Shown here: one piece after another, positions 1,468 to 32,589 of the stretch
Position numbering within the stretch: position 1 is the stretch's first letter
Layout of the letters: every line of letters begins with the position of its first letter
Assembly: GCA_017502165.1 (NCBI GenBank)
Contig: JAFVVO010000003.1
Span: forward strand, 1-58,333
Reading direction: 5' to 3'
Length of the DNA stretch: 58,333 nt
DNA from: Clostridia bacterium
GTDB lineage: Bacteria; Bacillota; Clostridia; Christensenellales; QALW01
The notes under the pieces: model-generated
Databases searched by the model: none
Told to the model about the DNA's origin: nothing
What the model saw: only the letters and a program-made list of their open reading frames with translations
Made by a program: the position numbers and the translations under genes

Positions 1468-2282
1468 TTAATGATTGCTCTTGTTTTTTTCTTTTATAAT
1501 TTTATACAATGTATCTAGCGGCACTTCTAAAGTATTTAAACTATCTTTCCACTCCAACAACAAAGATTCTGTAAGTGGAGTCATATTCCTTAGATATTCA
1601 CTTACATCATATTGAATATTAAGCTGACTTCTTGCATCAAACGAGTACCCAGAACTGTGCTCCAAAATAACACTACGCCGTCTAGGTAGAGTTGTTCTTA
1701 TCATAGTAGACATAGATAACTCGTGGTAAATCCAAGGAGACAATGTGGCTTTTTTATCTTTTTTCTTTACGTTATCTAGTTCATCTTTTAAAACGATAGA
1801 ATTAGGTGTATCAAAAAGATAATGCATTCTGTGTTGTCAATCATTTGTGAAAGAGCAGAAGATAACATCATATGAACATGACTTGTAGTGTAATTTCTCA
1901 ACTGATAATTATAAGTATCACCGGATTTGTTCTTGCAATATTCGTCATCGATTTCTTTCAACAGATCATCACAATATCCCCAAGAACATGAATCTATAAA
2001 TGAAGTTAACCCGAATGTGTTATATAACCATCCTGCAAATGCTGCTACTTTTGTTATATCCTTATGGGAATGCGAAAGAAATACATCGGCTTTTTCTATC
2101 TTAAACCAATGTTCTTTTAATGCACTACCATCTATTTGTCCGTTTTGGTAGATGAAGTCTTTCAAGGATTTTCTCGCTTGGCTTTCAAAATGATTGTATA
2201 TTTCTTTTCCTTTTTCTAAATGCGGATTTAATTCCTTGTTATAAAAGTAATGGGTTGGTGTATATTTAAATTTAGAATACAT
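1468..2282 (-). pseudogene. TIR-domain protein gene with a frameshift
   Basis: Two overlapping frames encode one TIR-like protein. The upstream part starts at ATG 2282 and contains DVFLSHSHKD, a typical TIR βA, then TSFIDSCSWGYCDDLLKEID and NTECIIFL. It ends at 1788 with unrelated residues. The expected continuation, DTPNSIVLKDELDN and LSPWIYHELSMSTMI, is in the -1 frame down to 1468. The break falls in a T5 run at about 1815-1819; one extra T would restore about 271 aa. TIR domains of bacterial defence systems cleave NAD+ or make cyclic ADP-ribose signals. The gene sits 11 nt after a small membrane-protein gene in the same transcript. This may be a real inactivation, phase variation or a base-calling error. 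Confidence 0.75.
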
Positions 2283-7575: not shown

Positions 7576-7576
7576 A

Positions 7577-9298
7577 TTACCCCTCCAATTCTTTATAGTA
7601 ATAGTCGGGTATGACGTTTATAGATACTTTGTTATCTTTAAGTTTCTGCGCTTGTCCAGCATCAAGAAGAATGTCGTGTCCAATATATAGTTTACGACAT
7701 TTTGTGAAGGCGTCGGTGTTTGCGATAAATTCGTCAAGTTCTTCTTCGGTCAGAACAATGCCGATTTCGGCGTTACCCGTAAAGTTTACACCGTTTTCAA
7801 GCTCAACGAGTTCACGGATATGGCAGAGCAGTTCATCTGCATATTCGTAATACATACGCTCGCTCACGGGAATATAATCTACCTTGTAATATTTCAAACT
7901 GCCGCTATTTTTTTGTAAAACATTTTTAATGCGGTTATATGTAATGTTCCGACAAATATCGCTTTCGTTATTTGTGCAAAGAATGAATTTGCGATTTCCA
8001 TCGTCAAGAGTATTGTGTTGCAACACGGCATGTCCCGTACTGCCTGAACCTGCGAAAAAGTCAAGAACCGTAATATCTTTCTCTGCAAAGTAATCAAGGT
8101 ACATATTTATCAGTTTAACAGGCTTTTTGCCGCTATTAAAAGGAACACCGCCCTCGTGTCGAATATTGCCAAAATCTCCTGCCATATCGTAAAAATTAGG
8201 AATAGGAGTTACCTTTGTCGCGCCCTCTGTCAATTTTTCGGAAGGAACACCTTGATAATACTTTCCTTTTGTTGCATTTGCTTTCTTAGGACCGGTGAAA
8301 TATCGGTAAGGGTATTGGTCATCGCCTATACCATAAACTTTATAAAGAATGCCTAATCCATCAACATCTTTTCTGCCGTCAAGATAATCACGGAAAAATC
8401 TACCCGATGAATTACCATTAAGAATAGTACCTGTTGCCCATATTTCTTTTAGACCGTCTTTGAAGCCTGTGTCGTGTTGTATGATTTCGTATTCGTCTTG
8501 TTCAAAGACAACCACCTTTTTTCCGCCCAATTCGATTTCTTTGCCTGTGGATAATTCATTGATAGAATATATAAATTTATCGTAATCATATTCTTGTGGC
8601 TTAAGATATGGTTTTGCCGCAAATGACTTTCGATACACTAAAACTTGCTCAATTTCTTTGTGGTAACGCATATCGGATTTCAATGTTTTATCAGGATAAC
8701 GCACTTGAATATAATCGGTTTTTTCGTAATTATCCTCACCAAAAATTTCATCGCAGAGAGCCTTTAAGTGCGGTGCTTCATTGTCATCAATGCTTATAAA
8801 AATAAAACCTCTTTCAGCTAATAATTTTCGGCAAAGCAGTAATCGTTTTTTCATAAATGATAACCATTTGCTGTGTCTATATAAATCATCCGCCGCAACA
8901 AAAGTATCATCGTACATAAAATCGGCGTTTTGTGTGTTATATGGCGGATCTATGTATATAAGATCGATTTTACCCTTGTGTGTTTTCTCGAGCAATTTGA
9001 GCGAAGCGAGGTTGTCACCCTCAATAAGAAAATTTATCTCTCCGCCGTTAGCGATAAAGAGGTCACCCTGCTCGGTCAGAACGGGTGTGTGAGTGGCAAG
9101 TATCTCGTCAATCTCCTCACGGTGTTCCTCAAACACAAGACCGTATTTTTTACCGTTAACATCCTTTTCGAGATCTGAGAGGTATGACAATAGATTACCA
9201 GTATTTTCATCCTGCGGTGCAGCAGAAATAAAGGTGCGTATTTCTTTTATTTTCGCAAGGAGATCCTCACGCTTTTGTTTTGAAATATTGGTACTCAT
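7577..9298 (-). CDS. type III restriction-modification DNA methyltransferase Mod
   Basis: A 573-aa β-class methyltransferase: catalytic DPPY motif (117-120, in [15 protein letters not shown]) comes before the AdoMet-binding FAGSGS motif (415-420). It would methylate one strand of an asymmetric site (usually N6-adenine) and provide specificity to Res through its central target-recognition region (about 190-380). Its ATG overlaps the DUF6680 stop (ATGA at 9295-9298) and its stop is 1 nt from res. I see no disrupting mutation and no long simple repeat that would suggest phase variation. Confidence 0.92.
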
Positions 9299-9795
9299 TT
9301 CTTCTCCTCCGGATTTTTGCTCTGCGGCATCATCTGTTGCATATTTAGCAACAGATTGTTATACGCTTGTTGAGATTGGTTTTGGGCTTCGATCTGTCGC
9401 AACATTCCTTTTGGGATATAGGGATTTTGAATAGTTTCCCACGTAACTTTATCCTTATATCCTAAAGAAACAGCCATCGTTTCTAATAATTTATACTGTG
9501 CAGTCTCGATTTTTTTAAGTTGCGATTCATCGGGATTTTGAACACAATACTTATCGTACAAGTCTTTCCACGCATTGCGTACTTTCTTATCATCTGCAAA
9601 CACTATGTCGATTATATTTAGGCAATATACACTTTCCTGTGTCCACCCATAAACTCGGGAAGTCATTAAAGTTTTAAATATGTGCATTTTGTCTTTTCGT
9701 TTTTCAGAGCAAGTTTGTAACCACTGCCCAATTAAAACGGCAATAATCGGAATGATAACAATTGCAATAAGATTCAATATTTCAGCTAATTTCAT
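9295..9795 (-). CDS. DUF6680 family protein, N-terminal membrane anchor
   Basis: A 166-aa protein with a membrane helix at residues 5-25 ([18 protein letters not shown]) followed by a cytosolic helical part. [17 protein letters not shown] and [20 protein letters not shown]-like blocks (here [20 protein letters not shown]) are diagnostic of DUF6680. ATG 9795 follows AAGGAGAAAAA; the in-frame upstream ATG at 9828 lacks an RBS. It is the first gene of the coupled operon with mod and res. The family is often found near defence genes, which suggests a membrane-linked accessory role; no activity is known to me. Confidence 0.72.
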
Positions 9796-9913
9796 TTTTT
9801 CTCCTTTTGTTATTGTTCCCTCAAGCATTTACAAATTTCGCACCAATGGCATCAATGAATGTGGGCTTGAGGAAAAGATATATGTGGGATAATAATTTGT
9901 TTATTCTTATATG

Positions 9914-10513
9914 TTAACTATGGAGCAGTATCTCCATAATGTCCATCACTTTATTGTAAACTCTCAGCTTCCTTGCGTAATCGGAAAGGGCGACGAGGTT
10001 TTTCTGTGTATCGTTTGCATAGGCATTTACAGCCTTACTGAACATTTCGTTATCAACCTTGCCACGATGCTTGAACATATCGCAGATGGTACGCTCACGG
10101 TCGTAAATGGCAAAGGTGACACCGTTTTCGGTGATCATAGTCTTGCCGAGCTCGTAAATATCGTCTTTAACGTAATAGACCTTTATCGGCACGGAGGTAT
10201 TAAGCCTGCGTGATGCACTTCTCGGCACGGTAACAGACCAAACTCTCGGCATAAAATCGCTGTAGCCATAACGGAACAAAGCCGACTCCATACTGATGAT
10301 CGCTTCGGGAATGGTAGAAGCGATTACCTGCTCATCGGAGAGGATAAGCTCATCTGCAAGCTGATAATAGCCTTGACGGACACGCTGAAGAAAGCCGTCA
10401 GAACACAGCTTATATATTTTCTCTTTTGGTACGCCGGCGGATGTGAGAGCAGACAGCTTCGCAATACCGCCGTTGGCACTAATTGTGTTTTTTATAATGT
10501 CTTTATATTCCAA
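9914..10513 (-). CDS. AbiEi-type antitoxin / transcriptional regulator without AbiEii
   Basis: A 199-aa protein with an N-terminal winged helix (DIIKNTISANGGIAKLSAL, GFLQRVRQGYYQLAD) and the AbiEi_4-like C-terminal domain (ERTICDMFKHRGKVDNEMFSKAVNAY). The start is TTG 10513 after GGAGGT; upstream codons lie in the promoter. AbiEi represses the abiE operon and neutralises the nucleotidyltransferase toxin AbiEii. No abiEii follows. Instead, the type III restriction operon begins 118 nt downstream on the same strand with no clear terminator between, so this protein may regulate that operon. A palindrome in its leader suggests autoregulation. Confidence 0.8.
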   Translation of the reverse strand: MEYKDIIKNTISANGGIAKLSALTSAGVPKEKIYKLCSDGFLQRVRQGYYQLADELILSDEQVIASTIPEAIISMESALFRYGYSDFMPRVWSVTVPRSASRRLNTSVPIKVYYVKDDIYELGKTMITENGVTFAIYDRERTICDMFKHRGKVDNEMFSKAVNAYANDTQKNLVALSDYARKLRVYNKVMDIMEILLHS

Positions 10514-10535
10514 TGTCCTACCTCCAATAAACGAT

Positions 10536-10548
10536 AACACATTGTGTT
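10536..10548. promoter_or_regulatory. operator-like palindrome in the abiEi leader
   Basis: AACACA-T-TGTGTT is a perfect 6-bp-arm palindrome between the -10 box and the RBS. A related half-site, AACACAAATG on the minus strand, occurs near 10620, upstream of the -35. AbiEi proteins are known to bind inverted repeats at their own promoter. Confidence 0.55.
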
Positions 10549-10564
10549 TAATGTTTTCTTTTGT

Positions 10565-10593
10565 ATTATACCACGACACTGCAAATAAAGCAA
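10565..10593 (-). promoter_or_regulatory. SigA promoter of abiEi (and possibly the R-M operon)
   Basis: TTGCTT (10593-10588), 17-nt spacer and TATAAT (10570-10565) on the minus strand. Confidence 0.8.
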
Positions 10594-10653
10594 TAAAAAG
10601 TCGAAACAAAAATTCATTTGTGTTATCATTTTTTGAAATTCAACAGTTCGTTT

Positions 10654-10683
10654 GACGCTTATCGAAAGATAGGCGTCTTTTTT
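10654..10683 (+). terminator. intrinsic terminator without an obvious upstream gene
   Basis: GACGCTTATC (10654-10663), GAAA tetraloop, GATAGGCGTC (10668-10677) and T6. It points rightward although no plus-strand gene ends here. It may insulate the repeat array from antisense transcription. Confidence 0.75.
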
Positions 10684-10730
10684 ATGCCTATTTTTCAAAA
10701 CAGGGTGAACGATCCGCATTTCTCTGTGCG

Positions 10731-11220
10731 AATTAGTGAGAGATAAATTTTTTTTGCTAAAGGGGTTGAATTTCAGCTATCCCCAGTGGGTACAAGTGAG
10801 GGAATAAAAATATCTTTTCAAAACACCCGATAATTTGCGGTTGCTCTGTGGGAACAAGTGAAAGGAAATTTTGCAAATAGACTTAAAAAACACCCTTTCC
10901 CATTGCAAATAAGTGAGGGGATTAAAAATTTTCTCTCAAAAAGGGTGTGCATTTGGACTTTCACAGTGGGAATTAGTAGAGGGGTAAATATTTTTTGACG
11001 ATTTGGGTGTCCAAAACGGCGTTCCCATTGCAAATAAGTGAAGGGCAAAAAATATTTTTCAGAAATTCCGACAAAAGGGTGTCCAAAACGGTACCCCTTG
11101 TCCAAATGAGTGAAGAGATAAAAATTTTCCTTCGAGTTGGGTGTGCAAAAGTGGTCTCTAAATTCCTAATTAGTGAGGGGGTGCAAATCAGGGGTGTAAT
11201 TCCAAATAAGTGAAAGGAGG
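10731..11220 (+). repeat. array of nine degenerate ~62-bp direct repeats
   Basis: A core like (C)AAATAAGTGAGGGG-TAAAAATTTT recurs with its AGTGA (or AGTAG) at 10735, 10795, 10857, 10912, 10975, 11037, 11109, 11172 and 11209. The spacings are 60, 62, 55, 63, 62, 72, 63 and 37. Between cores the motif AAGGGTGTCCAAAACGG returns in several units. No gene fits. The array precedes the YdbC-ParB-recombinase operon by about 100 bp, so binding by ParB, YdbC or the recombinase, or a replication or partition function, is possible. Confidence 0.75.
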
Positions 11221-11326
11221 TGGTTGTCAAAACCAAAAACGGTCGGAGGTCTTAAATATATAAATAAATATATAACTTACTCTCCGAAAAAGAATGAATT
11301 TTTAATCTATAGAAAGGAGTGAGCAA

Positions 11327-11629
11327 ATGGCAAAAAATAAGGTCTACAGCCGAGCAGAGATGCAAGAAGCAGGCATTGTAACTTGCGACTATGTTTTTAT
11401 GGACAAGCCCGGTGAATATATCGGAACGCTTGAAATGAAAGCAGAAGCAAGGGGCGGAATGCTTCGTCTTTTTCTTCGGTTGGTAGACGGAAAAAAGATC
11501 ATAACGCCGGTGTTCTGGTGGCAGGGGTATTTAGGCTTCTACGAAATTGACAACGGCACAAGGCTGAAGCTGATTTACGGACAAAGCAGCAAAGGCAGTA
11601 CCTATTTAAAACAAATCGAAAAACTTTAG
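11327..11629 (+). CDS. conserved hypothetical protein of the recombinase module (100 aa)
   Basis: Starts at ATG 11327 after AAAGGAGTGAGCAA. The 100-aa product is basic at the N-terminus and β-rich later (GTLEMKAEARGGMLRLFLRL, PVFWWQGYLGFYEI). No named domain is recognised. It is the first gene of a run of five plus-strand genes (100 aa, YdbC-like, ParB, 62 aa, recombinase) with spacings of at most 30 nt. It may be a single-strand or double-strand DNA-binding accessory of the element. The 97 nt upstream is A/T-rich with no clean promoter. Confidence 0.6.
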   Translation: MAKNKVYSRAEMQEAGIVTCDYVFMDKPGEYIGTLEMKAEARGGMLRLFLRLVDGKKIITPVFWWQGYLGFYEIDNGTRLKLIYGQSSKGSTYLKQIEKL

Positions 11630-11641
11630 GAGGAAACAAAA

Positions 11642-11857
11642 ATGTTTGAATATGAAATCATCAAGAAAATCGGAGTTGCAGGAGAAACCGGCAACGACAC
11701 AAAGGAAATCAATATCATCAAGTGGAGCGACAACGCACCGTGTATCGACGTGCGGCGTTGGAGAAACGGTAAGCCGCTAAAAGGCATCGCTTTTTATCCT
11801 GATGAGATTGATGAGCTAATCAAGCTACTCAAAAAAGCAAAAAAGGAGGTCATATAA
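11642..11857 (+). CDS. YdbC-like PC4-family DNA-binding protein
   Basis: A 71-aa protein whose pattern FEYEIIKKIGVAGETGNDTK, EINIIKWSDNAPCIDVRRW and KGIAFYPDEIDELIKLLKKA fits YdbC, the bacterial homologue of the PC4 transcription coactivator that binds single-stranded DNA as a dimer. ATG 11642 follows AGGAGGAAACAAAA. It abuts parB directly: the stop ends at 11857 and parB starts at 11858. In this operon it could assist recombination or transfer by protecting single strands; that is inference. Confidence 0.75.
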   Translation: MFEYEIIKKIGVAGETGNDTKEINIIKWSDNAPCIDVRRWRNGKPLKGIAFYPDEIDELIKLLKKAKKEVI

Positions 11858-12769
11858 ATGGCAAGAAAATCAGACTTTACTCTGCCGCCCATACCAATTG
11901 ATGCCATCTTTTCAACCCAGGCGGAAAGAGACGATGCACGCTTAGAGCGAGTACACAATATTCCCCTTGAGGAGCTACACCCCTTCAAGGATCATCCGTT
12001 TAAAATTCAATCGGGCGAGGAAATGGGCCGAATGGCTGAGAGCATTCGCAAGGTCGGGGCGATAACCCCCGCCCTTGCCCGACCGCTTGAGGATGGCGGA
12101 TTTGAGCTGATATCGGGACACCGCAGGCTTGCGGCGTGTCAGGTATTGGGACTTAAAACAATGCCCGTAATCGTTCGTGAAATGACAGATGATGAGGCGG
12201 TGATTGCAATGGTAGATGCAAATTTGCAAAGAGAAACCATTCTCCCCAGCGAAAAGGCATTTGCTTATCGGATGAAGCTTGAAGCAATAAAGCATCAAGG
12301 TAGGAGTACTTGTGGACAACTTGTCCACAAGTCGAGAGACGGTATATCCGAAGATGAAAGCGGAAGGCAAATTCAAAGATATATCCGCCTAACATACCTT
12401 ATCCCCGAACTGCTTGCCAAGGTAGACGAAGACAAAATTGCTTTCAGTCCGGCGGTGGAAATCTCATTCTTGACAGAGGATGAGCAAAGAATTCTGCTTG
12501 ATGCCATCGAACTAAACGACTGCACACCATCCCACGCACAGAGCATACGGCTCAAAAAGCTATCGCAGGACTGTATATTAACAAAAGACCAAATATACGA
12601 AATTATGGCGGAGGAAAAGCCGAACCAACAGGAGCATTTGCGGTTTCGCAGAGAGGATTTCAACGGATATTTCCCGAAGTCCTACACAGAACAACAGATC
12701 AAAAAGGATATCCTGAAAGGTTTAGAGCTTTTGCACCGCCACCGACAGCGAAACCGTGATGCGAGATAA
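11858..12769 (+). CDS. ParB/Spo0J-family partition protein of the element
   Basis: A 303-aa ParB-type protein: LEELHPFKDHPFKI, the CTPase-fold motifs ISGHRRLAACQVLG and DANLQRETILPSEKAFAYRM, then a helix-turn-helix DNA-binding region (SGRQIQRYIRLTYLIPELL). GHRR is the CTP-binding signature. No parA is adjacent. ParB homologues of integrative elements are thought to act in maintenance or gene regulation. The coding sequence contains an unusual 25-bp palindrome at 12308-12332. The start abuts the ydbC-like stop, with AAGGAGGTCATATAA as RBS. Confidence 0.88.
   Translation: MARKSDFTLPPIPIDAIFSTQAERDDARLERVHNIPLEELHPFKDHPFKIQSGEEMGRMAESIRKVGAITPALARPLEDGGFELISGHRRLAACQVLGLKTMPVIVREMTDDEAVIAMVDANLQRETILPSEKAFAYRMKLEAIKHQGRSTCGQLVHKSRDGISEDESGRQIQRYIRLTYLIPELLAKVDEDKIAFSPAVEISFLTEDEQRILLDAIELNDCTPSHAQSIRLKKLSQDCILTKDQIYEIMAEEKPNQQEHLRFRREDFNGYFPKSYTEQQIKKDILKGLELLHRHRQRNRDAR
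12308..12332. repeat. perfect 25-bp palindrome inside parB
   Basis: The arms ACTTGTGGACAA (12308-12319) and TTGTCCACAAGT (12321-12332) are exact reverse complements around a single C. The site encodes the linker residues STCGQLVHKS before the helix-turn-helix. It could be a protein-binding site or an RNA hairpin. Confidence 0.7.
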
Positions 12770-12798
12770 AAATCGCACATTTGTAAAGGAGGAGCACT

Positions 12799-12987
12799 AT
12801 GATTACAATTATAAAGGATAAAAATCCCAACCATATTTTCGCCGCCTTAAAGCTTTGCGAACAGCTTTATCACGACGGCAAAATTCCGTTATATATGTTT
12901 CGAAATATGGTAAATCAGCACGCTGACGTGGTGGATGCCTCGAAATTTAACTTCACCATTCAGCAGGAAGGAGAAAAAGCCGGATGA
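12799..12987 (+). CDS. small conserved protein before the serine recombinase (62 aa)
   Basis: ATG 12799 follows AAAGGAGGAGCACT. The short helical protein (NHIFAALKLCEQLYHDGKIP, YMFRNMVNQHADVVD) has no recognised domain. Its stop overlaps the recombinase start (ATGA at 12984-12987), so the two are coupled. It could be an accessory or directionality factor, by position only. The AAAAATCGCACATT motif lies just upstream (12768-12782). Confidence 0.65.
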   Translation: MITIIKDKNPNHIFAALKLCEQLYHDGKIPLYMFRNMVNQHADVVDASKFNFTIQQEGEKAG

Positions 12988-14735
12988 TGTATCGATACAA
13001 CGAATTTGACGAACGAAGGGTGGTGATTTATGCCCGTGTTTCTACCGAGCACGAAGCGCAGATATCTGCACTCAGCAATCAACTGGAATGGTATCAGCAA
13101 TATCTTGACCACCACCCCGAATGGAACCTGATTGATCGCTATATTGATGAGGGTATTACGGGAACCTCGGCGGAAAAGCGACCGGGCTTTACCCAGATGA
13201 TCGCCGATGCTAAGGCACACAAGTTTGACCTAATCATTACTCGTGAGGTATCCCGATTTGCACGTAACACAGAGGAAACCCTGCACTTTACAAAGATGCT
13301 TCGCCTCATCGGTGTTGAGGTGTTCTTTATCAATGATAATATCAAGACCTTTGACGGCGACGGAGAACTCAGACTGACCATTATGGCGAGCCTTGCACAG
13401 GATGAAAGCCGTAAGACCTCGATCCGAGTGAAAAGCGGTCAGCAGATCTCAATGGAAAAGGGTGTATTCTACGGCAACGGTAATATCCTCGGCTATGACC
13501 GAGTGGAGCGAATCGTGGAGGGCAACAAAAAGCAAGTGGATTTTAATATCAATCCTGTGCAAGCCGAAACGGTACGGAGAATCTTTGATATGTACCTTGA
13601 GGGACACGGACTGATGGCGATAAAAAATGAGATGGAGCGCACGGGACGCAGGACTGCTACGGGTCTACCGAATTGGCATTGCACGGGAATCTCCCAAACG
13701 CTTAAAAACTCATTTTACTGCGGCATCATTACCTACCACAAGGAATACACTCCCGACTTTTTGGTGCAGAAAAAGGTGAAAAACTACGGTGAAATGGCGC
13801 TAACACAAGTTCAAGGCAGACACGAGCCGATTATAACCGTTGAAGAATACGAAAGGGTGCAAAAAATTATGAAAAGCAAAACGGGAAAACTCAAAAATCC
13901 AACCACAGGCAGAAAGCTGACGGGCGTAACACCGCCAAAGACCGTATGGGGCAAACTGATGATCTGCTCCTGCGGCAGACGGTTTAACCGCCGCAAATGG
14001 AGAACCAATGCAAACGGCGAAAAGTTCTTCGGCTACCAATGCTACGGCACAACGCAGACTGGTACTATCAAAAGCCGCCTAAAACGTGGACTTCCCATTG
14101 ACGGCATTTGCCAGTCGCCGATGATTGCAGAGTGGAAGCTACAAATGATGGCAAACTATATCTTCCGTCATTTCCTTACCAACAAACAAAAAGTGTTGGA
14201 AATTGCGAACTCCTTGCTTGAGGAGCATATCAGCGATACCGAAGTTCAAGTGCAGGATAATTCAAAACTCATAGAGCAAAAGCAACGTGAGCTTGACAGA
14301 GCCAACACCAAGCGCAGAAATCTTGTGGATTTGCTCAGTAATTGTGATATCACCCATGAGGACTACCAAGAAGCACGTGCCGAGGTGGATAGGCAGATAG
14401 ATAAGCTCAAGGCGGAAATCGAAGAACTGACACCGGTAGTCGAGGAAACCGAGGAGGAAGAAATCGACTACGAAAGCAAGATCACCGTTCTCCGCTATGC
14501 TTTGGAGCAATACACAAATTTTGATAGCGACGGCGATATCCCCGAAAGCGTTATCGAAGCCTTTGTTGAAAAAATCGAGGTTTCAAAGGACTGCTTCAGG
14601 TGGCATCTTCGTGGAGACTTCGGCGGCGACGCTCCCATTCCTATGAATGTAGAGGGCAACCGCAAGAAAGGGGCGACAATTTCGCCCCAGTACATAATTC
14701 CCCCTGCAAACTTTGGCGACTCAGGCTGCGATTAA
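12984..14735 (+). CDS. large serine recombinase (site-specific integrase)
   Basis: A 583-aa large serine recombinase. The N-terminal resolvase domain has catalytic Ser20 in VVIYARVSTE and downstream EVSRFARNTEETL. The recombinase domain follows (GVFYGNGNILGYDR, INPVQAETVRRIFDMYLEG). A zinc β-ribbon is visible (MICSCGRRFNRRKWRTN with later CYG and ICQSP), then a coiled coil (about residues 425-500). Such enzymes integrate and excise mobile elements at att sites. As the last gene of the element it probably lies next to one attachment site. All catalytic motifs look intact. Confidence 0.92.
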   Translation: MMYRYNEFDERRVVIYARVSTEHEAQISALSNQLEWYQQYLDHHPEWNLIDRYIDEGITGTSAEKRPGFTQMIADAKAHKFDLIITREVSRFARNTEETLHFTKMLRLIGVEVFFINDNIKTFDGDGELRLTIMASLAQDESRKTSIRVKSGQQISMEKGVFYGNGNILGYDRVERIVEGNKKQVDFNINPVQAETVRRIFDMYLEGHGLMAIKNEMERTGRRTATGLPNWHCTGISQTLKNSFYCGIITYHKEYTPDFLVQKKVKNYGEMALTQVQGRHEPIITVEEYERVQKIMKSKTGKLKNPTTGRKLTGVTPPKTVWGKLMICSCGRRFNRRKWRTNANGEKFFGYQCYGTTQTGTIKSRLKRGLPIDGICQSPMIAEWKLQMMANYIFRHFLTNKQKVLEIANSLLEEHISDTEVQVQDNSKLIEQKQRELDRANTKRRNLVDLLSNCDITHEDYQEARAEVDRQIDKLKAEIEELTPVVEETEEEEIDYESKITVLRYALEQYTNFDSDGDIPESVIEAFVEKIEVSKDCFRWHLRGDFGGDAPIPMNVEGNRKKGATISPQYIIPPANFGDSGCD

Positions 14736-24867: not shown

Positions 24868-24896
24868 TTGACAACGGGCTGAATATAGTATAAAAT
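24868..24896 (+). promoter_or_regulatory. SigA promoter of the five-gene TIR/ParA/SpeD-like operon
   Basis: Perfect -35 TTGACA (24868-24873), 17-nt spacer, -10 TAAAAT (24891-24896). Confidence 0.85.
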
Positions 24897-24949
24897 AATA
24901 TATATTATATTAAAATGCCGAAATATTGCTAAAAGAAAGGAGGGCGCTT

Positions 24950-26107
24950 GTGAAAGGATACTATACCAAGGAAGAGGTTGTTCAGGAAGGCTTTTTGTTT
25001 ATCAGCTACAAGCACGAGGACAGCAGTGAAACGGTTTACGATACGCTTAACTATCTTTTTGAGCAGGGTGTCAGGTTTTGGTACGATGCTGATTTGGGCG
25101 TAGGAGAGAAGTGGACCGAAATTGCGGAAGGGCTTATTAAGCATCCTAACTGCCGAGGCGTTGTGTTTTTTAACAGTATACCGTCTTTTACAAGTGAGCC
25201 GGTTCACAAGGAGCGTGGCTTTACCCTTGAAAAACAGAAAAAATGCAGAGAAGAAAAAACTCCCTTTTGCATCTTTCCCGTAAACATTGGTCAGCCTTCC
25301 GTTCTTGAGCTAATTAAAGCCGTATTTTATGAAATTAACGATTTAACAAGGCTTAAGAGGGAGTTTCCCATCGAATATATTAAGAATATAACCACTCTGT
25401 TTGACAGCGAAATTATTTACTGTTATGCTGATCCGAATAATAAAGAGGGGTATCGGAGCGACCTTTGCAATATAATTGCCAAAAGTCTTCCTCAGGTTAT
25501 CAACAAAGACGTTGTAAGAATGAAAAAGTTTGAGGATTCGGGTATTCGGCAGGACGGCAAGCGTGCGTACTTCGGAAAATGTGCCGATAAGCAAACGGCG
25601 GACGTGCCTGCGTCACTTTTAAGTAAGGACGGAAGAATTTCCTTAAACGGCAACAATTACATTGTTCAAAACGGAAGCGCTTATACGATTAAGAAAATTC
25701 CGTGGCGTCTGCTTTACTGCAAGGACGATAAATGCGTGCTTATTTCCGAGGAACCCGTAGGCGTAAGAACGGGTGGCGCAGAGCTGAAGCAATGGTTGAC
25801 GGATTCCTTCTTCCCGTTAGCCTTTACCGAGGAGGAAAAGACTCAGGTAGAGGAAATAAGGCTGGCTACCTTGGAGGACGTACAGAAGGCTAAATCAGAG
25901 GAAAAGCTTGTGTTTTTACAATCGGAAATTAATCCCGATGGTCATTGGTGGATAGATTCTATGGCTCACGGGGCGCTTCAAAAGGTTGTAAAAAAGGACG
26001 GAAGGATTTTTGCCGCAGGATATAATATGCGGACGAAAAAATCCGGTGTCAGACCGATAATAGTGGTAAACAATTCGACATTAACGAAAATTATAGAAAA
26101 TTATTGA
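24950..26107 (+). CDS. TIR-DUF6273 fusion protein (gene 1 of the five-gene system)
   Basis: A 385-aa protein. Residues 14-130 are a TIR domain: FLFISYKHEDSSETVYDTLN, GVRFWYDADLGVGEKWTEIA and VVFFNSIPSF, with E88 (SEPVHKERGF) or E94 as candidate catalytic glutamate. The C-terminal third is DUF6273-like: IPWRLLYCKDDKCVLISEEP, LKQWLTDSFFPLAFTEEEK, HWWIDSMAHG and GVRPIIVV. TIR domains in bacterial defence often hydrolyse NAD+. DUF6273 resembles lectin-like or formylglycine-generating folds used for ligand sensing. GTG 24950 follows AAAGGAGGG; the open frame begins earlier at TTG 24926. It heads an operon of five genes. Confidence 0.82.
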   Translation: MKGYYTKEEVVQEGFLFISYKHEDSSETVYDTLNYLFEQGVRFWYDADLGVGEKWTEIAEGLIKHPNCRGVVFFNSIPSFTSEPVHKERGFTLEKQKKCREEKTPFCIFPVNIGQPSVLELIKAVFYEINDLTRLKREFPIEYIKNITTLFDSEIIYCYADPNNKEGYRSDLCNIIAKSLPQVINKDVVRMKKFEDSGIRQDGKRAYFGKCADKQTADVPASLLSKDGRISLNGNNYIVQNGSAYTIKKIPWRLLYCKDDKCVLISEEPVGVRTGGAELKQWLTDSFFPLAFTEEEKTQVEEIRLATLEDVQKAKSEEKLVFLQSEINPDGHWWIDSMAHGALQKVVKKDGRIFAAGYNMRTKKSGVRPIIVVNNSTLTKIIENY

Positions 26108-26128
26108 TTTTGAAACGGAGAAAACATT

Positions 26129-28306
26129 ATGGCAAACGCAAGATTAAAATACGGCGCACTTTATGATGTTATTGACAGCTCGGTAAGTGAGGAAAAGGAA
26201 TCTATTTTCCACACCTATATTGCAAAGGAAGATACGGGCAAACGAATTTTTAAGGAGCTTTATACGAGATTTCAGGCTGATTCCTCAAAGGGTCACGTGG
26301 GCTTCTATATGGACGACGGAAAGCAGATCGGTATTCTTTCACAATGTCAATCCATGCAGGCTCTTATGCTTTTAGCTTCTGAATTCGGCCTTGATTTCGA
26401 CGATGAGCACATTATTGATGCGGAAAAATCAAACCTTACCATTCGTCAGATTATGGATATGGTTATTGAGGATATTATCGAGAGAATTACCGAAGGAACT
26501 GAGGAAAATCAGTACCGTTTTGACGCTTCACCTTACGAAAAGAAGCTTTTTACCGTTCAGTATTCCAACGTTGACACCATTACCTGGGTTGTAACTTCAT
26601 TCCTGCTTGCGCTTAAGTATCACGCAACCATCGGTGAAACTTGTAAATGGGAAAAGCAGCTGGTTGACGTTATTTCTTACGGTCTTCGTTATTTTAACGA
26701 TTCTTTTATTGAAAGTGAGGCGGAGGGCACATCCAATTCACTTAATATCGGTTGGAACTTTACCAAGGACTGTCAGGAGCCTTCGCTTTACTATTCGTTT
26801 ACCGTTTGCGAATGCTTTGTTGACTTCTTTACCACCTTTGAAGAGTATTTATCGTATAAGGAGGCCGACAGAGATTTCAAAATGTACGGTCTTCCCGTTG
26901 ACAAGAACCTTGCCGCTAACTTTAAGAAGCATCAGCAGACCTTTGAAAAGCTGACCAAGGAGGGCGACCGCGGATACGACAAGAAGACCGGCAAGAAGCT
27001 TGCTCAGTATGATGAGTATAATGAGCTTAAAATGCGTTATTGTGAAATCAATAACGGTCTTGACAGCATTGAAAACACCTTCTACGGCGAGCTTGAAGCA
27101 AAATGTAAGCGCGTAGCAAAGGAAATCTGGAGACTTGCCAAGGGCGAGCTGGCAGATGCATTCTTCTATAACGACCTTCATACCACTATTTCTGAAGATG
27201 AAATCGGCATGGCAACCACCTCCGACGCATTGTTTAACACCGTTTATATTATCAATATTCTTCTTGACTCAGGTCTTGACGAGGATTTCAAAAAGGATAT
27301 TGAAATTGCAAGAAGCGCCGGCGACAACGAGGCGGCGGCAGATGCAGAGCGTGAATACAACAACTTGTTTGAATCCTGCCAGATGGCAGTTCAGAAGGCG
27401 TTCAGAACTTATGAAAAGCTTCAGAACAACGGAAAGGAATACATTGTTGACCAGTTCCTTGTAGGTTTCAACGAAAACTTTACTGTTCACAGAAATCTTA
27501 TTAAAGATCTGCGAAAGCGCCGTATGAGAGTTTTCTCCTTGATGCCTCTTCTGATTCATACAAACAACGTTATAAGTGAATATCTTATCCAGTATCCTCA
27601 GATCAATATGAGAAAATATCTTGGATATATTCTTGAAAACCGTTTTGAAGAAAATAACAAGAGTAAGTGGATTTGGGAAAAGGACGGCTATTTCAGTTGC
27701 AGTAACTACTACTATATTTCCGCTCTCGGTGAGTTCTACGCTTATTACGAAAAGTATGAAAGCAAGTTCATTGATAACTACGTTCGTAACGAAGAATACG
27801 AAGCAAAAATTATTAAGCAGACAGAAGAAATGCTTCTTTCTTCGTCAGGTAAATTAGGTGAGCTGGAGCGTGAAATTCAGCGTCGCGACCTGGAAATCAA
27901 GCATCTGAACGAATTGATTCAGAACGTTTCCAAGCCCATTGAGGACGCGGTTATTGAGGTAACCACCGAAAAAATTAAGCAGCTTTTCCCCGAAATGCTT
28001 TGCGATTTCCTTCGTAATGCGGCTTCTGGCCTGACGGTTTCTGCAATAGATAACACTGAGCTTCAGGATGAGCATACGGAATTTGCAGATGCTCTCGGAG
28101 ATTTGCTCGTGGCGGTTATCAGCAAGCAGATTTACGACGCTATCCGTCCTGCAACGCTTTCTAAGGACGAGCAGAACATTAAGTACCGTCAGCTTGAAAA
28201 GCATATCAGAGACGATTTCAGCGAGCTGTTGTTCAACTACGTATATGCAGTTAAGAACAGTCCCATTCACAGCAGTCAGCTTTTTGAATCAAACAAAGGA
28301 GAATAA
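26129..28306 (+). CDS. 725-aa helical protein, possible alpha/alpha-toroid with coiled coil (gene 2)
   Basis: No named family is recognised. The N-terminal ~300 residues have repeating helical hairpins (QSMQALMLLASEFGLDFDDE, NVDTITWVVTSFLLALKYH, LNIGWNFTKDCQEPSLYYSF) of the kind seen in alpha/alpha-toroids such as terpenoid-cyclase-like domains; this is a visual impression only. A coiled coil covers about residues 566-595 (GELEREIQRRDLEIKHLNEL). The C-terminus is helical and acidic. ATG 26129 has GGAG 8-9 nt upstream. It follows the TIR gene by 21 nt and precedes the ATPase by 6 nt, so co-expression is certain within the limits of sequence. Confidence 0.6.
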   Translation: MANARLKYGALYDVIDSSVSEEKESIFHTYIAKEDTGKRIFKELYTRFQADSSKGHVGFYMDDGKQIGILSQCQSMQALMLLASEFGLDFDDEHIIDAEKSNLTIRQIMDMVIEDIIERITEGTEENQYRFDASPYEKKLFTVQYSNVDTITWVVTSFLLALKYHATIGETCKWEKQLVDVISYGLRYFNDSFIESEAEGTSNSLNIGWNFTKDCQEPSLYYSFTVCECFVDFFTTFEEYLSYKEADRDFKMYGLPVDKNLAANFKKHQQTFEKLTKEGDRGYDKKTGKKLAQYDEYNELKMRYCEINNGLDSIENTFYGELEAKCKRVAKEIWRLAKGELADAFFYNDLHTTISEDEIGMATTSDALFNTVYIINILLDSGLDEDFKKDIEIARSAGDNEAAADAEREYNNLFESCQMAVQKAFRTYEKLQNNGKEYIVDQFLVGFNENFTVHRNLIKDLRKRRMRVFSLMPLLIHTNNVISEYLIQYPQINMRKYLGYILENRFEENNKSKWIWEKDGYFSCSNYYYISALGEFYAYYEKYESKFIDNYVRNEEYEAKIIKQTEEMLLSSSGKLGELEREIQRRDLEIKHLNELIQNVSKPIEDAVIEVTTEKIKQLFPEMLCDFLRNAASGLTVSAIDNTELQDEHTEFADALGDLLVAVISKQIYDAIRPATLSKDEQNIKYRQLEKHIRDDFSELLFNYVYAVKNSPIHSSQLFESNKGE

Positions 28307-28312
28307 GCTTAA

Positions 28313-29248
28313 ATGAAAACAATATCATTCTTTTCTTATAAGGGCGGCGCAGGAAGAAGCACCTTAGCTTATAACGTTATTCCGATTCTTGCAAAGGATT
28401 ATTTCCGTCCTACTGCAGAAAGTCCCATAATCGTGGTTGATACTGACGTTGATAGCTGCGGTATGTCATATTTGCTTGGCGCTGAGGAGCAGGTTACTGA
28501 TAATAACTGTATTCAGTATTTGCTAGGCAACCCCTTCAGCACAAGAAGATGCGACAGTATCAGCGAGCATCCCTTCCTTAAAAATCTGATTCCCGTGGGA
28601 AATGCTTACGGATACCCCGATAACGACGCCATTTTGCTTTTACCTGCAAAGGATAACAAAAATATCAGCAAGGACGGCAAAAATAACTATGCCGAAGCGG
28701 GCGGACTTTCCTTTATGGAATCAATGAAGGGCTTTTTAGACGTTTGCGACGAGTATTTTGACGTTCCTGCGGTTATATTCGACTCTTCCGTTGGTAATAC
28801 GGCTTTAGCAAACATTTCCAACGAAATGGCTAGCATTATCGTTTGCGTAATGCGTCCTACAATTCAGTTTGTAAACGGTACAAGACGTTACCTTGTTGAC
28901 TTTGAAGAGGGCGAAAAATTCAGTGGCGGCGGAAAGGAAATCGTTCTCGTTCCCAACGTTATTCCCGATAAGGAAATAACCATCGGCAACGCGGTTTATC
29001 CCGATGCGGCTATTGATAAAATTATCAATACCTTCGTTAACTCAAACGTTTTCAAAAACAGTCCCAATAACACGTACCATATGGATATGCTTGACCCGGA
29101 GGAGTTTGGTATTCCTATGGTTGACAGCTTTATGTACGTTGAGGGTCAATTACTTAACAAAAAGAATTATTACGGTAACGAGGAGTTAGTTCTCGGCAGA
29201 TACAGAAAGCTTGCCAGAATTATTAACGAAATAGATTCCGAATATTGA
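28313..29248 (+). CDS. ParA/MinD-like P-loop ATPase with KGGAGRST motif (gene 3)
   Basis: A 311-aa deviant-Walker ATPase. The P-loop is FFSYKGGAGRSTLAYNV: K10 is the signature lysine, but the canonical lysine before Ser/Thr is Arg15. Walker A' region VVDTDVDSCGMSYLLG (about 42-57), switch-type segment VIFDSSVGNTALANISNEMA and IVCVMRPTIQFVNGTRRYL follow the MinD/ParA order, and VLVPNVIPD ends the fold. Such ATPases position complexes or gate assembly on membranes or nucleoid. The RBS is AAAGGAG at the end of gene 2. No ParB-like partner is in this operon. Confidence 0.82.
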   Translation: MKTISFFSYKGGAGRSTLAYNVIPILAKDYFRPTAESPIIVVDTDVDSCGMSYLLGAEEQVTDNNCIQYLLGNPFSTRRCDSISEHPFLKNLIPVGNAYGYPDNDAILLLPAKDNKNISKDGKNNYAEAGGLSFMESMKGFLDVCDEYFDVPAVIFDSSVGNTALANISNEMASIIVCVMRPTIQFVNGTRRYLVDFEEGEKFSGGGKEIVLVPNVIPDKEITIGNAVYPDAAIDKIINTFVNSNVFKNSPNNTYHMDMLDPEEFGIPMVDSFMYVEGQLLNKKNYYGNEELVLGRYRKLARIINEIDSEY

Positions 29249-29263
29249 TGGAGGAAAGACGGT

Positions 29264-31555
29264 ATGTCTGAAAATAATTTCGGAGAAAAGCAACAGCTTA
29301 TAAGCAAAATTGAAAAGTTTTTCGACAGAAGCGTCAGCAAGAACGTTATGCGTTACGTTTTAGGCGGAACGAAGGTTTCCCGCTACGTAACCAGATTGCG
29401 CGATTATCCTGCGTACTTTAATAACGTTTTCTCTCTTGCGTTTATTTTTGCATACGGTTGCTTGCGATATGATAACGATAGCGACCGTCCTCAGAATTTA
29501 GAATTTACTAAGCAAAATTCACTCAGAATTGTTAACAGTCTGAAAAAAGCATATATTCAGTATCCCGTAAGCACGGAGCTGGTTCAGTTCGTTTTATCTG
29601 ATATTCAGTTTGAAATGCTTCAGGGCGGAGACGAGAAGATTTACGAGGTTTTCGGCAAAATATGTAATTTCAGAAGCCTTAAATATTCCATTTCAAAATA
29701 TTATAAGGTTATTTATGAATGGAGAGGCGCCCCTTCAAGATTCAAGATGAATGAGGAAGAAATCCTTGAGATGTTCTACAACTTGCTTAAGTGTATGACC
29801 TTCTTAAGAAATTACGATATTGTTCTTGAAGACGGTTTATGCTCCTTTGTAGATAAAGAAGCGGCGGAATTTGACGATTTTGATGCACCGTATTCCTTGA
29901 TTCCTGCGTATCACATTGTTCATTTCCCTGAAGAATATATGAACGTGTTTTCGCTTTATTCGGCAGAAATGCACGAGACAACAGAGGGAAAGTATCTTAA
30001 CCTTACATACGTTACCGGTGACGGCTTTAATTCGCTTCGTTATACGGTGGGTGAGAGCAAGCCTGATGACGTTGAGGAGGAAGCGTTTATCGAAGCTTCA
30101 GCAAACGATTACTATTACGAGATTTTTGGTGAGGATTGGGAATATACCACCGAGCAAAAGGCAAAAAAGAACAATAGCTTTATTGACCAGGTGCACACCA
30201 TCAATTATAAGTACATAAAAAACCTTGCTCTTGCAATTTCTGACGCCATAAGCATTAACCGCGGTACAAAGGGAGCTTTGTATTCACAGTTCCGCAAGCG
30301 GTATAAGGATATTTTTAGGGACGTTGAGGAGCGGCTTGAGGCTGAGGCGGATATTGAATGCATAAAGCTTGATTGGGATAGCATTATAGTTATGCTTTTG
30401 ATTGAATCAAGCCCCACAAGCGTTCTTGAAACCTTGTTTAAGGAAAACAGACAGACCTTTATTACCGTTGCGGAAAATCTTTGCAAGCGTATTGATAATC
30501 CCGATTTGCCCTTCTATTCAAAGAAGCCTGACGAGTTGGACACAATGGTTAATAATATTATTCAGACGAAGCTGGTTATGGGTGAGACCGGCGGTATAGG
30601 AATGATTTCCAAAAATCAGACCAGCCAACGCTTGCGTGCCCGCGCGGAAGCCTTGCTTATAGTTTCGTCGCTTTCGTTTATTCACGAGCAGAATATGGAG
30701 GAAAAGACCATCTGCGCCGGAAATATTTATGATAACATTTCCTTTCTGAATAAAATAGTAAGTGAATATTCTGCCGAGCAAAAAATTAAGTATACCGGTA
30801 CTATTTTAGGTGAAACCTTTCGACATTTAGTATGTTTCTACAAGGGCGTGCTTGCTTATGGTGAAAAGAAGGCTGAATACGATGCGGCATATTATAATAG
30901 CTTCTTTTCTGATGCGCAAATAGCTTCCGAACAGAAAAAAATGCAAAAGGATTTCTTTTCTGCCGCAAAGGCTGAGGCGGAATTCCTTAAGCAGTATAGC
31001 TCGGATGACCTTGATGGCATTAAGAATATGATTCAGCGGTTTATCGGCTTGTGCGAGGACTGCAGCTCATCAATTAACAATGCAGGGGCGTACAGTCATA
31101 AGATTTTTGCCGTTTTAGGTAAATACGATTTACTTAATTTATCCGAGTTCAGAAACTACGTTGAGCTGTTTTTGAATAAATATAACGAAATCAACGAGGA
31201 TAACGTTGATAAGTGGATTGCCTTTACCCTTGATACCTTAAAATATTTGCGAAACGGAAGCTTCAAAAACACTGAAGGCTCCTTCTTTAAGGCGGTTTAT
31301 CCCTTTGCGGCAACGTACAATAAGGGCAATGAAAACTATGACGGTCACCGCACGGTTACCTTCAAGCTTAATTTTGACGTTGACGGTGATGAGAAGGCGG
31401 ACGAGGCAGAATATATTAACGTTTTAACAGAGTTTTCATATAACACTACCAACGTTTTCTATTGCTTGCCAAACGTTCTTCGGGCTAACAAAAGATGGTG
31501 GATTGACCCTCTTTTAATAAGCTTTAAGGAATTTAATGATATTTTTGAGGAGTAA
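29264..31555 (+). CDS. 763-aa protein of unknown function (gene 4)
   Basis: A large, mostly helical protein without a recognised domain. Helical segments dominate, for example RIVNSLKKAYIQYPVSTELV and INYKYIKNLALAISDAISIN. The C-terminus has an acidic β-type segment with FDVDGDEKADEAEYI, which resembles a Ca-binding loop but may be coincidental, followed by NVFYCLPNVLRANKRWWIDP. No signal peptide or membrane helix is seen. ATG 29264 follows GGAGGAAAGACGGT, 15 nt after the ATPase stop. It is part of the same operon and could be the scaffold or sensor of the system; this is inference. Confidence 0.6.
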   Translation: MSENNFGEKQQLISKIEKFFDRSVSKNVMRYVLGGTKVSRYVTRLRDYPAYFNNVFSLAFIFAYGCLRYDNDSDRPQNLEFTKQNSLRIVNSLKKAYIQYPVSTELVQFVLSDIQFEMLQGGDEKIYEVFGKICNFRSLKYSISKYYKVIYEWRGAPSRFKMNEEEILEMFYNLLKCMTFLRNYDIVLEDGLCSFVDKEAAEFDDFDAPYSLIPAYHIVHFPEEYMNVFSLYSAEMHETTEGKYLNLTYVTGDGFNSLRYTVGESKPDDVEEEAFIEASANDYYYEIFGEDWEYTTEQKAKKNNSFIDQVHTINYKYIKNLALAISDAISINRGTKGALYSQFRKRYKDIFRDVEERLEAEADIECIKLDWDSIIVMLLIESSPTSVLETLFKENRQTFITVAENLCKRIDNPDLPFYSKKPDELDTMVNNIIQTKLVMGETGGIGMISKNQTSQRLRARAEALLIVSSLSFIHEQNMEEKTICAGNIYDNISFLNKIVSEYSAEQKIKYTGTILGETFRHLVCFYKGVLAYGEKKAEYDAAYYNSFFSDAQIASEQKKMQKDFFSAAKAEAEFLKQYSSDDLDGIKNMIQRFIGLCEDCSSSINNAGAYSHKIFAVLGKYDLLNLSEFRNYVELFLNKYNEINEDNVDKWIAFTLDTLKYLRNGSFKNTEGSFFKAVYPFAATYNKGNENYDGHRTVTFKLNFDVDGDEKADEAEYINVLTEFSYNTTNVFYCLPNVLRANKRWWIDPLLISFKEFNDIFEE

Positions 31556-31558
31556 TTA

Positions 31559-32362
31559 ATGATTGCTAACAGACATTATATGCTTGATGCATACGGTTGT
31601 GTTTTCGAGCAGGCAAACAGTATTTTAGGTGTTAACGATTTACTGGTGCAGATAACTAACGAATTGGATATGGAGCCGATTATGCCTCCGTTTTTGATTC
31701 CCTTTTATTACTGTAAGGACGCGGAAGACGTGGGTGTAAGCGCCTATTGTATATGCGCTAACGGTTCACACGTTACCATTCACACCTTTCCGTACCGTTC
31801 CTGCTATTTCGTAGATATTCTGACCGATAAATTCTTTACCGAGGCGGACGTTACAAATAAAATCTGCAACCAGATTTATGCATCATCCATAACCACCAAC
31901 GTGGTGGACCGTCGTGAGTTTGACGGATTTGACGGTCTTATTGACCAGGGTAATGACTTTGGACCTCACTATATGATTACCATTGAGGATATTGATATTA
32001 CCTTTGAGGATATGTTCTCCTGGCTTGACCAGATTGCGCCCAAAATTAATATGCAGGCTATTTCGAGACCTTACGTTATTTTCGATAAGGTAAATAATCC
32101 TTCGTATATTTCCGGCGTGCTGGTGGTGGCACAAAGCCATATAGCCTTTCACTATTCCATTGAGGAAAGAAAGGCTAACCTTGATATTTTCTCCTGCAGT
32201 TTCCTCGAAAACGGACTGGTAGAGGAAATTTTGCATCAGTCCTTTGGCGGAAAAGAGCGTATGAGCTTGTTCGCAAGGGGAAGTAAGCACCGTATCCAGT
32301 GCCAGAACAGGTCAAGGCAGTCCCGTATCGAAAAGGAAGAGGCCTGGAGAAGTAATATATAA
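31559..32362 (+). CDS. duplicated S-adenosylmethionine-decarboxylase-like protein (gene 5)
   Basis: A 267-aa protein with two half domains resembling SpeD. N-half: ANGSHVTIHTFPYRSCYFVD (67-86), aligning with the SpeD core SESHxTIHTWPE. Ser70 is at the pyruvoyl serine, but Gly replaces Glu before it and the catalytic Cys position is not Cys (ILTDK). C-half: VVAQSHIAFHYSIEERKANL and DIFSCSF (189-215), with Ser193, His198 and Cys213 in the right order. SpeD enzymes self-cleave before that Ser to form a pyruvoyl cofactor and decarboxylate AdoMet. Whether either half does so is unknown. The ATG lies 3 nt after the gene 4 stop. A basic tail (KHRIQCQNRSRQSR) ends the protein. Confidence 0.65.
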   Translation: MIANRHYMLDAYGCVFEQANSILGVNDLLVQITNELDMEPIMPPFLIPFYYCKDAEDVGVSAYCICANGSHVTIHTFPYRSCYFVDILTDKFFTEADVTNKICNQIYASSITTNVVDRREFDGFDGLIDQGNDFGPHYMITIEDIDITFEDMFSWLDQIAPKINMQAISRPYVIFDKVNNPSYISGVLVVAQSHIAFHYSIEERKANLDIFSCSFLENGLVEEILHQSFGGKERMSLFARGSKHRIQCQNRSRQSRIEKEEAWRSNI

Positions 32363-32378
32363 AAAATAAAAATTGTTC

Positions 32379-32417
32379 ATTTGGGCATCTTCGGTTTTGA
32401 AGATGCCCCAAATTATT
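32379..32417 (+). terminator. terminator of the five-gene operon
   Basis: ATTTGGGCATCTTC (32379-32392) pairs with GAAGATGCCCCAAAT (one bulged C), with a GGTTTT loop and a TATTTT tail. Confidence 0.85.
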
Positions 32418-32460: not shown

Positions 32461-32589
32461 TTACACTCGTTCAGCTCTTGCGTCTGCCCTTGAAAGTGTG
32501 AGGCAGATTTCATTTGCAAGGTGAAGCTGAGAAATACCTTTTTCTTTACGCAAAAGTTTAATTGTACTACCCGTTACGTAACTATTCAT
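32461..32589 (-). pseudogene. truncated XRE-family regulator (42 aa remnant)
   Basis: From ATG 32589 the minus strand encodes MNSYVTGSTIKLLRKEKGIS and QLHLANEI, the start of a typical Clostridial XRE regulator (MnnYvtGxtIkxLRexkgxTQxxLAexl). It then degenerates (CLTLSRADARAERV) and stops at 32461 before the second helix of the HTH. It is a decayed gene, divergent from the YhcH-like stub. Confidence 0.6.

Follow-up and report, generated by a model that had tools for sequence, protein, structure and literature searches.

A recurrent five-gene operon of gut Clostridia that may join interchangeable TIR and CorA-like effectors to arginine-to-agmatine chemistry

What do a TIR protein, a ParA/MinD-like ATPase, a tandem SpeD protein and two orphan proteins do together in one operon? 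This question is raised by positions 24868-32417 of a 58,333-nt stretch of DNA from Clostridia bacterium (GCA_017502165.1, JAFVVO010000003.1), hereafter called the window. The five genes, g1 to g5, all stand on one strand and are separated by gaps of 21, 6, 15 and 3 nt (Table 1). The hairpin behind them is of a type whose frequency here is not above that in shuffled sequence. An earlier note on this DNA had described one promoter, five same-strand genes with these gaps and one terminator, and the positions and spacing agree with our re-reading. For g1, a TTG at 24926 is also open and would give a protein of 393 aa. Just two of the five proteins have domains over the curated Pfam cut-offs: g1, with its TIR domain, and g5, with two SpeD domains.

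Table 1 Positions of the operon genes, their predicted functional sites and other features of the window.
Feature	Position	Strand	Remarks
TIR-type domain, short open frame	1788-2282	-	left window edge
Res of type III restriction-modification-like pair	5380-7575		reading of translation
Mod of type III restriction-modification-like pair	7577-9298		reading of translation
AbiEi-like gene	9914-10609		reading of translation
ParB-like gene	11858-12769		reading of translation
Large serine recombinase	12984-14735		reading of translation
Sigma-70-like promoter	24868..24896	+	TTGACA-17-TAAAAT; 11/12 matches; top site of the region
g1	24950..26107	+	385 aa; GTG start, AAGGAGG before it
Predicted catalytic Glu codon of g1 TIR domain	25211..25213	+	residue 88, GTG form
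g2	26129..28306	+	725 aa
g3	28313..29248	+	311 aa
Deviant Walker A of g3	28340..28360	+	KGGAGRS; Arg at the position of the P-loop Lys, signature Lys present
g4	29264..31555	+	763 aa
g5	31559..32362	+	267 aa
Predicted autocleavage/pyruvoyl Ser193 codon of g5	32135..32137	+	corresponds to T. maritima Ser63
Intrinsic-terminator-like hairpin	32383..32408	+	11-bp stem, then T-rich tail
Remnant of XRE-type helix-turn-helix gene	32461-32589	-	42 codons

We investigated how widely the unit recurs. Among 297 genomes of the window's order, a search with g4 found 14 genomes of 9 genera with other operon genes beside g4; when 396 genomes of the order were searched with a g2 profile, 24 of them, in 15 genera, gave a match. 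The g5 profile, run on one genome per GTDB species, returned 77 loci. In all, 59 non-redundant loci carry g2 and g3, and most of them also carry g5. The five-gene order is conserved between divergent loci (~22-50% identity) in unrelated genomes of many genera. Gut metagenomes of roe deer and sheep supplied the closest relatives of the window, which are 71% identical to it in g3 and 71-77% in g5. A class sample (391 genomes, g4 profile) and a phylum sample (398 genomes, g2 profile) each yielded the window's own genome only, and lone loci were seen in bins named Bacilli, Erysipelotrichaceae and Cloacimonadota, for which bin contamination is possible. Viral contigs showed no relative of g3 or g5, and plasmids none of g3. 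The system mainly belongs to one order and is patchy within it. The earlier note had held that the unit would be no conserved system if homologues of genes 2, 4 and 5 never co-occurred with the ATPase and TIR gene, or if the order were confined to one species; they do co-occur, and the same five-gene order is found again in unrelated genomes. We are close to certain that this is a real conserved multi-gene system.

The g1 protein matched the Pfam family TIR_2 with an E of 1e-7 and 32.9 bits, above the curated cut-off of 28. The residue aligned to the TIR catalytic glutamate is Glu in 40/40 operon TIR proteins, and a g1 homologue stands 5' of g2 in most relatives. The label TIR-DUF6273 first given to g1 held for the TIR part; for DUF6273 (PF19789), the C-terminal part gave no Pfam match up to E=1, and a genome search with this family gave no match for g1, the control genomes being equally silent. 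We regard g1 as a candidate effector, probably a NAD-destroying TIR protein. A short open frame at the window's left edge also reads like a TIR-type domain.

The next gene, g2, had been called a helical protein, a description which stood and which the predicted structure makes more specific. Its AlphaFold2 model (pLDDT 87.8) presents an alpha/alpha toroid over approximately residues 25-545, followed by a long C-terminal coiled coil. The toroid aligned with GH76 at a VIA Z of 20.9 and an rmsd of 3.8 over 309 residues, with similar VIA values (Z ~21) for cellobiose 2-epimerase and squalene-hopene cyclase; such likeness to enzymes, found in a predicted fold, shows no function. With no Pfam family above cut-off, g2 is an orphan family. 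The same is the case for g4, which matched no Pfam family and whose AlphaFold2 model (pLDDT 83) is mixed helical and beta. The best fold relative of g4 had a VIA Z of 5.2 and no Foldseek match reached E<=0.001, which does not make the fold new. Sequence profile searches of the PDB with g2, g3 and g4 gave nothing usable.

Between these two, g3 is a SIMIBI (ParA/MinD-like) ATPase of the KGGxGR type. Against the NCBIfam model AAA_KGGVGR (NF047398) it scored 54.6 bits with an E of 1.7e-14, which marks it as related and under the curated 90-bit cut-off. In an alignment of 13 sequences, K10, G11, G12 and R15 are invariant; where ParA/MinD proteins are defined by both lysines, g3 has the signature Lys and an invariant Arg in the place of the P-loop Lys. 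The ATPase had been put forward as the switch, and g3 was found to be an invariant core gene of the related loci.

The last protein, g5, is a tandem of two AdoMet_dc (SpeD) domains, matched by Pfam AdoMet_dc in two stretches with an E of 1.1e-21 and 77.6 bits against a cut-off of 25. In the C-terminal half, Ser193 is conserved in 82/82 sequences, His198 in 81/82 and Cys213 in 82/82, and the +5/+20 spacing is that of Ser63-His68-Cys83 in T. maritima SpeD. The N-terminal half has Gly at the serine position in 70/82 sequences, and system members mostly have Asp for the cysteine; the g5 of the window has Ser at the serine position there, but without the preceding Glu. Judged by these residues, the N-terminal half is a dead domain and the C-terminal half holds the sole predicted intact active site. 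The earlier description of g5 as a double SpeD-like protein therefore stands for its two domains, with the addition that a single active site is intact.

Considering the neighbours of g5 relatives, the substrate can be addressed. In Bacilli, an agmatinase gene lies directly 5' of a g5 homologue in 23 loci from which g2-g4 are absent; the agmatinase model was the best or near best match of these ureohydrolases and was over its cut-off in 2/3 tested. These two-gene operons of agmatinase and tandem SpeD (L066, L068, L070, L078, L101 and 18 more) form a probable putrescine route, with a fused SpeD in which the C-terminal half alone has an intact active site. Within the system, 17 loci carry an agmatine enzyme, a deiminase in 15 and an agmatinase in 2. 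The deiminase partner matched PAD_porph at 3e-89, and agmatine_aguA was the best NCBIfam model in 2/3 proteins, under that model's cut-off. SpeD homologues with arginine decarboxylase activity are established, and SpeB or AguA neighbours are a clue to them (PMC10407285). Because the relatives of g5 are linked to agmatinase or agmatine deiminase in the same way as these known SpeD-derived enzymes (PMC10407285), we infer that its substrate is arginine. With fairly good confidence, we presume g5 to be a SpeD-fold arginine decarboxylase, probably pyruvoyl-dependent.

A true AdoMet decarboxylase feeding spermidine was also considered for g5 and is disfavoured, both by the agmatine-enzyme linkage and by scores under the equivalog cut-off (57.6 bits against the Bacillus-type AdoMet decarboxylase model TIGR03330, cut-off 75.65). 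Ornithine or AdoMet may be alternative substrates. As to ornithine, a Gln often precedes the pyruvoyl Ser in the g5 family, and one of the four diagnostic residues of SpeDC is a Gln, though the two positions may differ. The window's genome presented no agmatinase, no agmatine deiminase and no SpeD other than g5, together with one PLP-type Orn/Lys/Arg decarboxylase elsewhere. Since both agmatine enzymes are absent there, agmatine made by g5 would have no obvious outlet in this genome. Phage records gave only partial, mostly weak SpeD-like matches to g5. With the g5 profile, 8znj_B (SiAgo-associated protein 1 of the Sulfolobus Argonaute system) appeared at E 0.25, which is not significant.

We then took a census of locus types over the 59 loci with g2 and g3, naming the partner enzymes by Pfam and NCBIfam. 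The constant core is g2, g3 and usually g4. Type A, that of the window, reads TIR-g2-g3-g4-g5 and comprises 23 loci; L047 is a further case, truncated by the end of its contig. In type B (10 loci) the TIR protein has LRR_5 repeats and g5 is followed by genes for a radical SAM and a PPDK-like enzyme, whereas type C (9 loci) has agmatine deiminase between TIR and g2-g3, then a short or absent g4, and g5. Type D (8 loci) joins agmatine deiminase or agmatinase to g2-g3-g4-g5, with a CorA-like protein in place of TIR. Three types are small: TIR-g2-g3-g4-GNAT (type E, 3 loci), radical SAM-g2-g3-g4-TIR, the radical SAM being of the SPASM type (type F, 3 loci), and g2-g3-g4 with a TIR domain inserted into g4 (type G, the 2 loci L155 and L156). 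At L153, of type F, the place of g4 is held by a diverged 793-aa frame. The GNAT, SPASM-radical-SAM and inserted-TIR types make up the 8 loci that lack g5, and decarboxylation is therefore not strictly required.

The TIR and CorA-like genes exclude each other, the 8 CorA loci having no operon TIR gene and the TIR loci no CorA gene. At L077, of type D, a long LRR protein does match the TIR profile, but on inspection it has a hydrophobic signal-like start and shares the LRR repeats only. In the g3 tree the accessory types fall into few groups, and the distribution of TIR and CorA needs 4 changes, at least 2 of them forced by well-supported branches. Two PADLOC CorA models detect 6/8 and 4/8 proteins of the CorA-like family (L055:10774-12360, L056, L061, L062, L063, L077, L082 and L096), the best at 7e-12; by hydropathy, seven of the eight have two hydrophobic helices near the C-terminus and the one from L061 has one. 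CorA proteins are the membrane effectors of SAM-AMP type III CRISPR systems (PMC10600005, PMC12255297). These loci suggest that CorA-type effectors are also used outside type III CRISPR, no cas genes having been recognised beside them in a non-systematic look.

The best case for an effector system is this exchange, around an unchanging core, of a soluble, NADase-type protein for a predicted membrane protein. The TIR protein had been proposed as the effector module, which gains support from the invariant catalytic Glu, from its exchange for a CorA-like protein and from its fusion into g4. The insertion into g4 also suggests that g4 and TIR touch. That the TIR and CorA-like proteins are toxic effectors is, on these sequence grounds, a well-favoured reading. 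The composition of the operon had been read as that of a conflict or sensing system with a TIR effector; a conserved system with an effector-like TIR was found, and amine metabolism as a major part of it had not been foreseen. We count it as a major part because g5 is a probable arginine decarboxylase and relatives add deiminase, agmatinase, GNAT, radical SAM or PPDK-like enzymes.

Two further enzyme associations were observed. Directly 3' of g5, an MSMEG_0568-like radical SAM gene is paired with a PPDK/PEP-synthase-like gene in ten loci (L057, L058, L059, L069, L071-L073, L079, L090 and L106), and this pair may tailor an arginine-derived product. In addition, both loci with TIR inserted into g4, which have no g5, are followed 3' by a gene for a PLP-type Orn/Lys/Arg decarboxylase (L155:2651-4150, L156:709-1770), which may be either a replacement of g5 or an ordinary housekeeping neighbour.

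The genomic setting bears on the trigger. Upstream of the operon lie a CotH-like gene and an HD-domain gene, named from reading translations and syntenic in a genome of the same genus. That genome lacks the operon, and its HD gene is followed after ~25 nt by the start of another gene. In the relatives compared, a clean empty site was not demonstrable, the downstream flank being non-syntenic. The earlier note had seen decayed genes beyond the terminator as fitting an insertion; just past the terminator there is one remnant of an XRE-type helix-turn-helix gene, so that the claim of decayed genes is partly right. It had also proposed to look for defence genes nearby, and here the result was negative, since in a coarse comparison the PADLOC families in the flanks were not commoner than in control stretches of system-carrying genomes.

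Approximately 10 kb upstream of the operon, the window holds what reads, from translations only, as the end of a mobile element (5380-14735; Table 1). Elsewhere, membrane proteins of ~735 aa, often paired and some with a RyR domain, occur near 13/59 system loci and in 0/16 control stretches (L084:10810-15227; near L024, L025, L039, L054, L057, L058, L072, L073, L074, L090, L102 and L156). In phages, proteins with RyR domains act on ADP-ribose signals made by TIR proteins, either cleaving or binding them (PMC13232231). The membrane proteins are thus a suggestive neighbour of the system, outside the window.

Taken together, we propose an unreported modular TIR/CorA effector system of gut Clostridia that is coupled to arginine-to-agmatine chemistry, a reading to which we give an even chance. 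In this proposal g2, g3 and g4 would form a sensing and switching complex, in which g4 would dock the TIR effector, as the insertion of TIR into g4 of two relatives suggests; a sensor or scaffold role for g2 and g4, which the earlier note had suggested, stays conjectural. Once activated, TIR would consume NAD+ and stop the cell, and the CorA-like versions would disrupt the membrane. The g5 protein would cleave itself at Ser193 and form agmatine by decarboxylation of L-arginine. This agmatine, or something derived from it, would most likely be the small molecule by which the switch is set or its state reported, or else a guard or a substrate. Phage would be the most likely trigger, with the balance lying near the middle. 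Because the flanks show no PADLOC enrichment, phage defence is a presumption. That an arginine-derived amine, either agmatine or the product of a partner enzyme, is the signal or guard which controls the interchangeable TIR and CorA effectors through the three-protein switch is put forward tentatively.

The same genes could be those of a biosynthetic or metabolic cluster, in which g5 and partner enzymes make an arginine-derived amine, the TIR protein is biosynthetic or regulatory and g2-g3-g4 is a tailoring or export complex. As many as three metabolic enzymes per locus, a g2 toroid fold that is frequent among enzymes and the lack of nearby enrichment of defence families would suit this explanation. 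However, the enzymes vary between clades, while g2, g3 and the TIR/CorA gene are constant; the mutual replacement of TIR and CorA-like proteins suits effectors better than pathway steps; and in two loci the g2-g3-TIR unit has no decarboxylase. We consider such a cluster unlikely.

A stress- or envelope-sensing growth arrest, set off not by phage but by nutrient state or by an imbalance of polyamines or arginine, has to explain a patchy spread (24/396 genomes of the order), the absence from the same-genus genome, the effector swapping and the apparent transfer to Cloacimonadota, Bacilli and Erysipelotrichaceae bins, all of which are typical traits of conflict systems. It would account for the frequent partnership with arginine decarboxylase and agmatine enzymes, for the BspA-type LRR_5 repeats on some TIR proteins and for a position outside classical defence islands. 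We judge it to be rather improbable.

The decarboxylase could itself be the effector, draining arginine together with agmatine deiminase or agmatinase while TIR drains NAD+. Agmatine-consuming enzymes in 17 loci could pull the reaction forward, but SpeD-type decarboxylases are slow, with for example a kcat of 0.008-0.5 per s for ornithine (PMC10407285), and the g5 homologues of Bacilli are found in simple agmatinase operons resembling putrescine synthesis, which makes this very doubtful. Finally, that five unrelated genes are adjacent by chance is refuted by an order kept across loci of ~22-50% identity with gaps of 3-21 nt, and can be set aside.

TIR and CorA-like effectors are familiar from nucleotide-signal immunity. 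Here they alternate on core families of undescribed function, beside arginine and agmatine enzymes. If the proposed effector system is immune, it would extend the TIR repertoire by a new switch and raise the question of polyamine-type metabolites as immune signals or guards; if the amine-signal reading is true, it would be a counterpart of nucleotide second-messenger immunity that is built on an amino-acid decarboxylase. For the SpeD family, g5 is a fused protein with a polarity opposite to known fusions, the predicted active half being C-terminal, and the agmatinase-SpeD operons of Bacilli offer a directly testable setting for the g5 family.

How does this operon stand against known systems? 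The gene set matched no described system in PADLOC or Pfam, and the open-access papers searched hold no description of a TIR system with arginine decarboxylase, ParA-like, KGGVGR or DUF6273 components, so that the earlier statement that no described system has this gene set holds for the libraries and literature covered. With Thoeris ThsB and the TIR effectors of CBASS it shares a TIR domain with conserved catalytic Glu, likely NAD+-consuming or signal-making. In contrast to these systems, it has no ThsA-, SAVED- or CD-NTase-like gene, and its switch consists of a KGGxGR ATPase, two orphans and a decarboxylase; by Pfam and PADLOC, neither a ThsA-type SIR2/SLOG nor another known partner effector is present in g2-g5, and no CD-NTase is among the five proteins.

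The likeness to type III-B CRISPR CorA (PMC10600005) lies in the relatives, where the CorA-like protein that replaces TIR matches the PADLOC CorA models, whereas the window has TIR instead; the SAM-AMP papers (PMC10600005, PMC12255297) leave a decarboxylase unmentioned. SpeDA and the SpeD-SpeD fusions (PMC10407285) have in common with g5 the SpeD fold, the Ser/His/Cys set, the linkage to agmatine enzymes and the tandem fusion. In g5, however, the N-terminal half is dead and the C-terminal half intact, whereas the V. vadensis fusion and eukaryotic AdoMetDC have the opposite arrangement; no SpeE partner was seen, and g5 lies mostly inside a TIR/CorA operon.

The FxSxx / VMAP systems (PMC7159879) and AAA_KGGVGR proteins resemble the operon in TIR, in a MinD/ParA-like ATPase and, in some loci, in radical SAM. 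They differ in that the operon is without vWA, MoxR, AP-ATPase and metallopeptidase, with no vWA or MoxR Pfam match in g1-g5, that g3 is under the AAA_KGGVGR cut-off, and that no counterpart of g2, g4 or g5 is described for FxSxx / VMAP systems (PMC7159879). By analogy, the operon may work like TIR- or CorA-effector immunity, from a position outside the membership of Thoeris, CBASS and VMAP.
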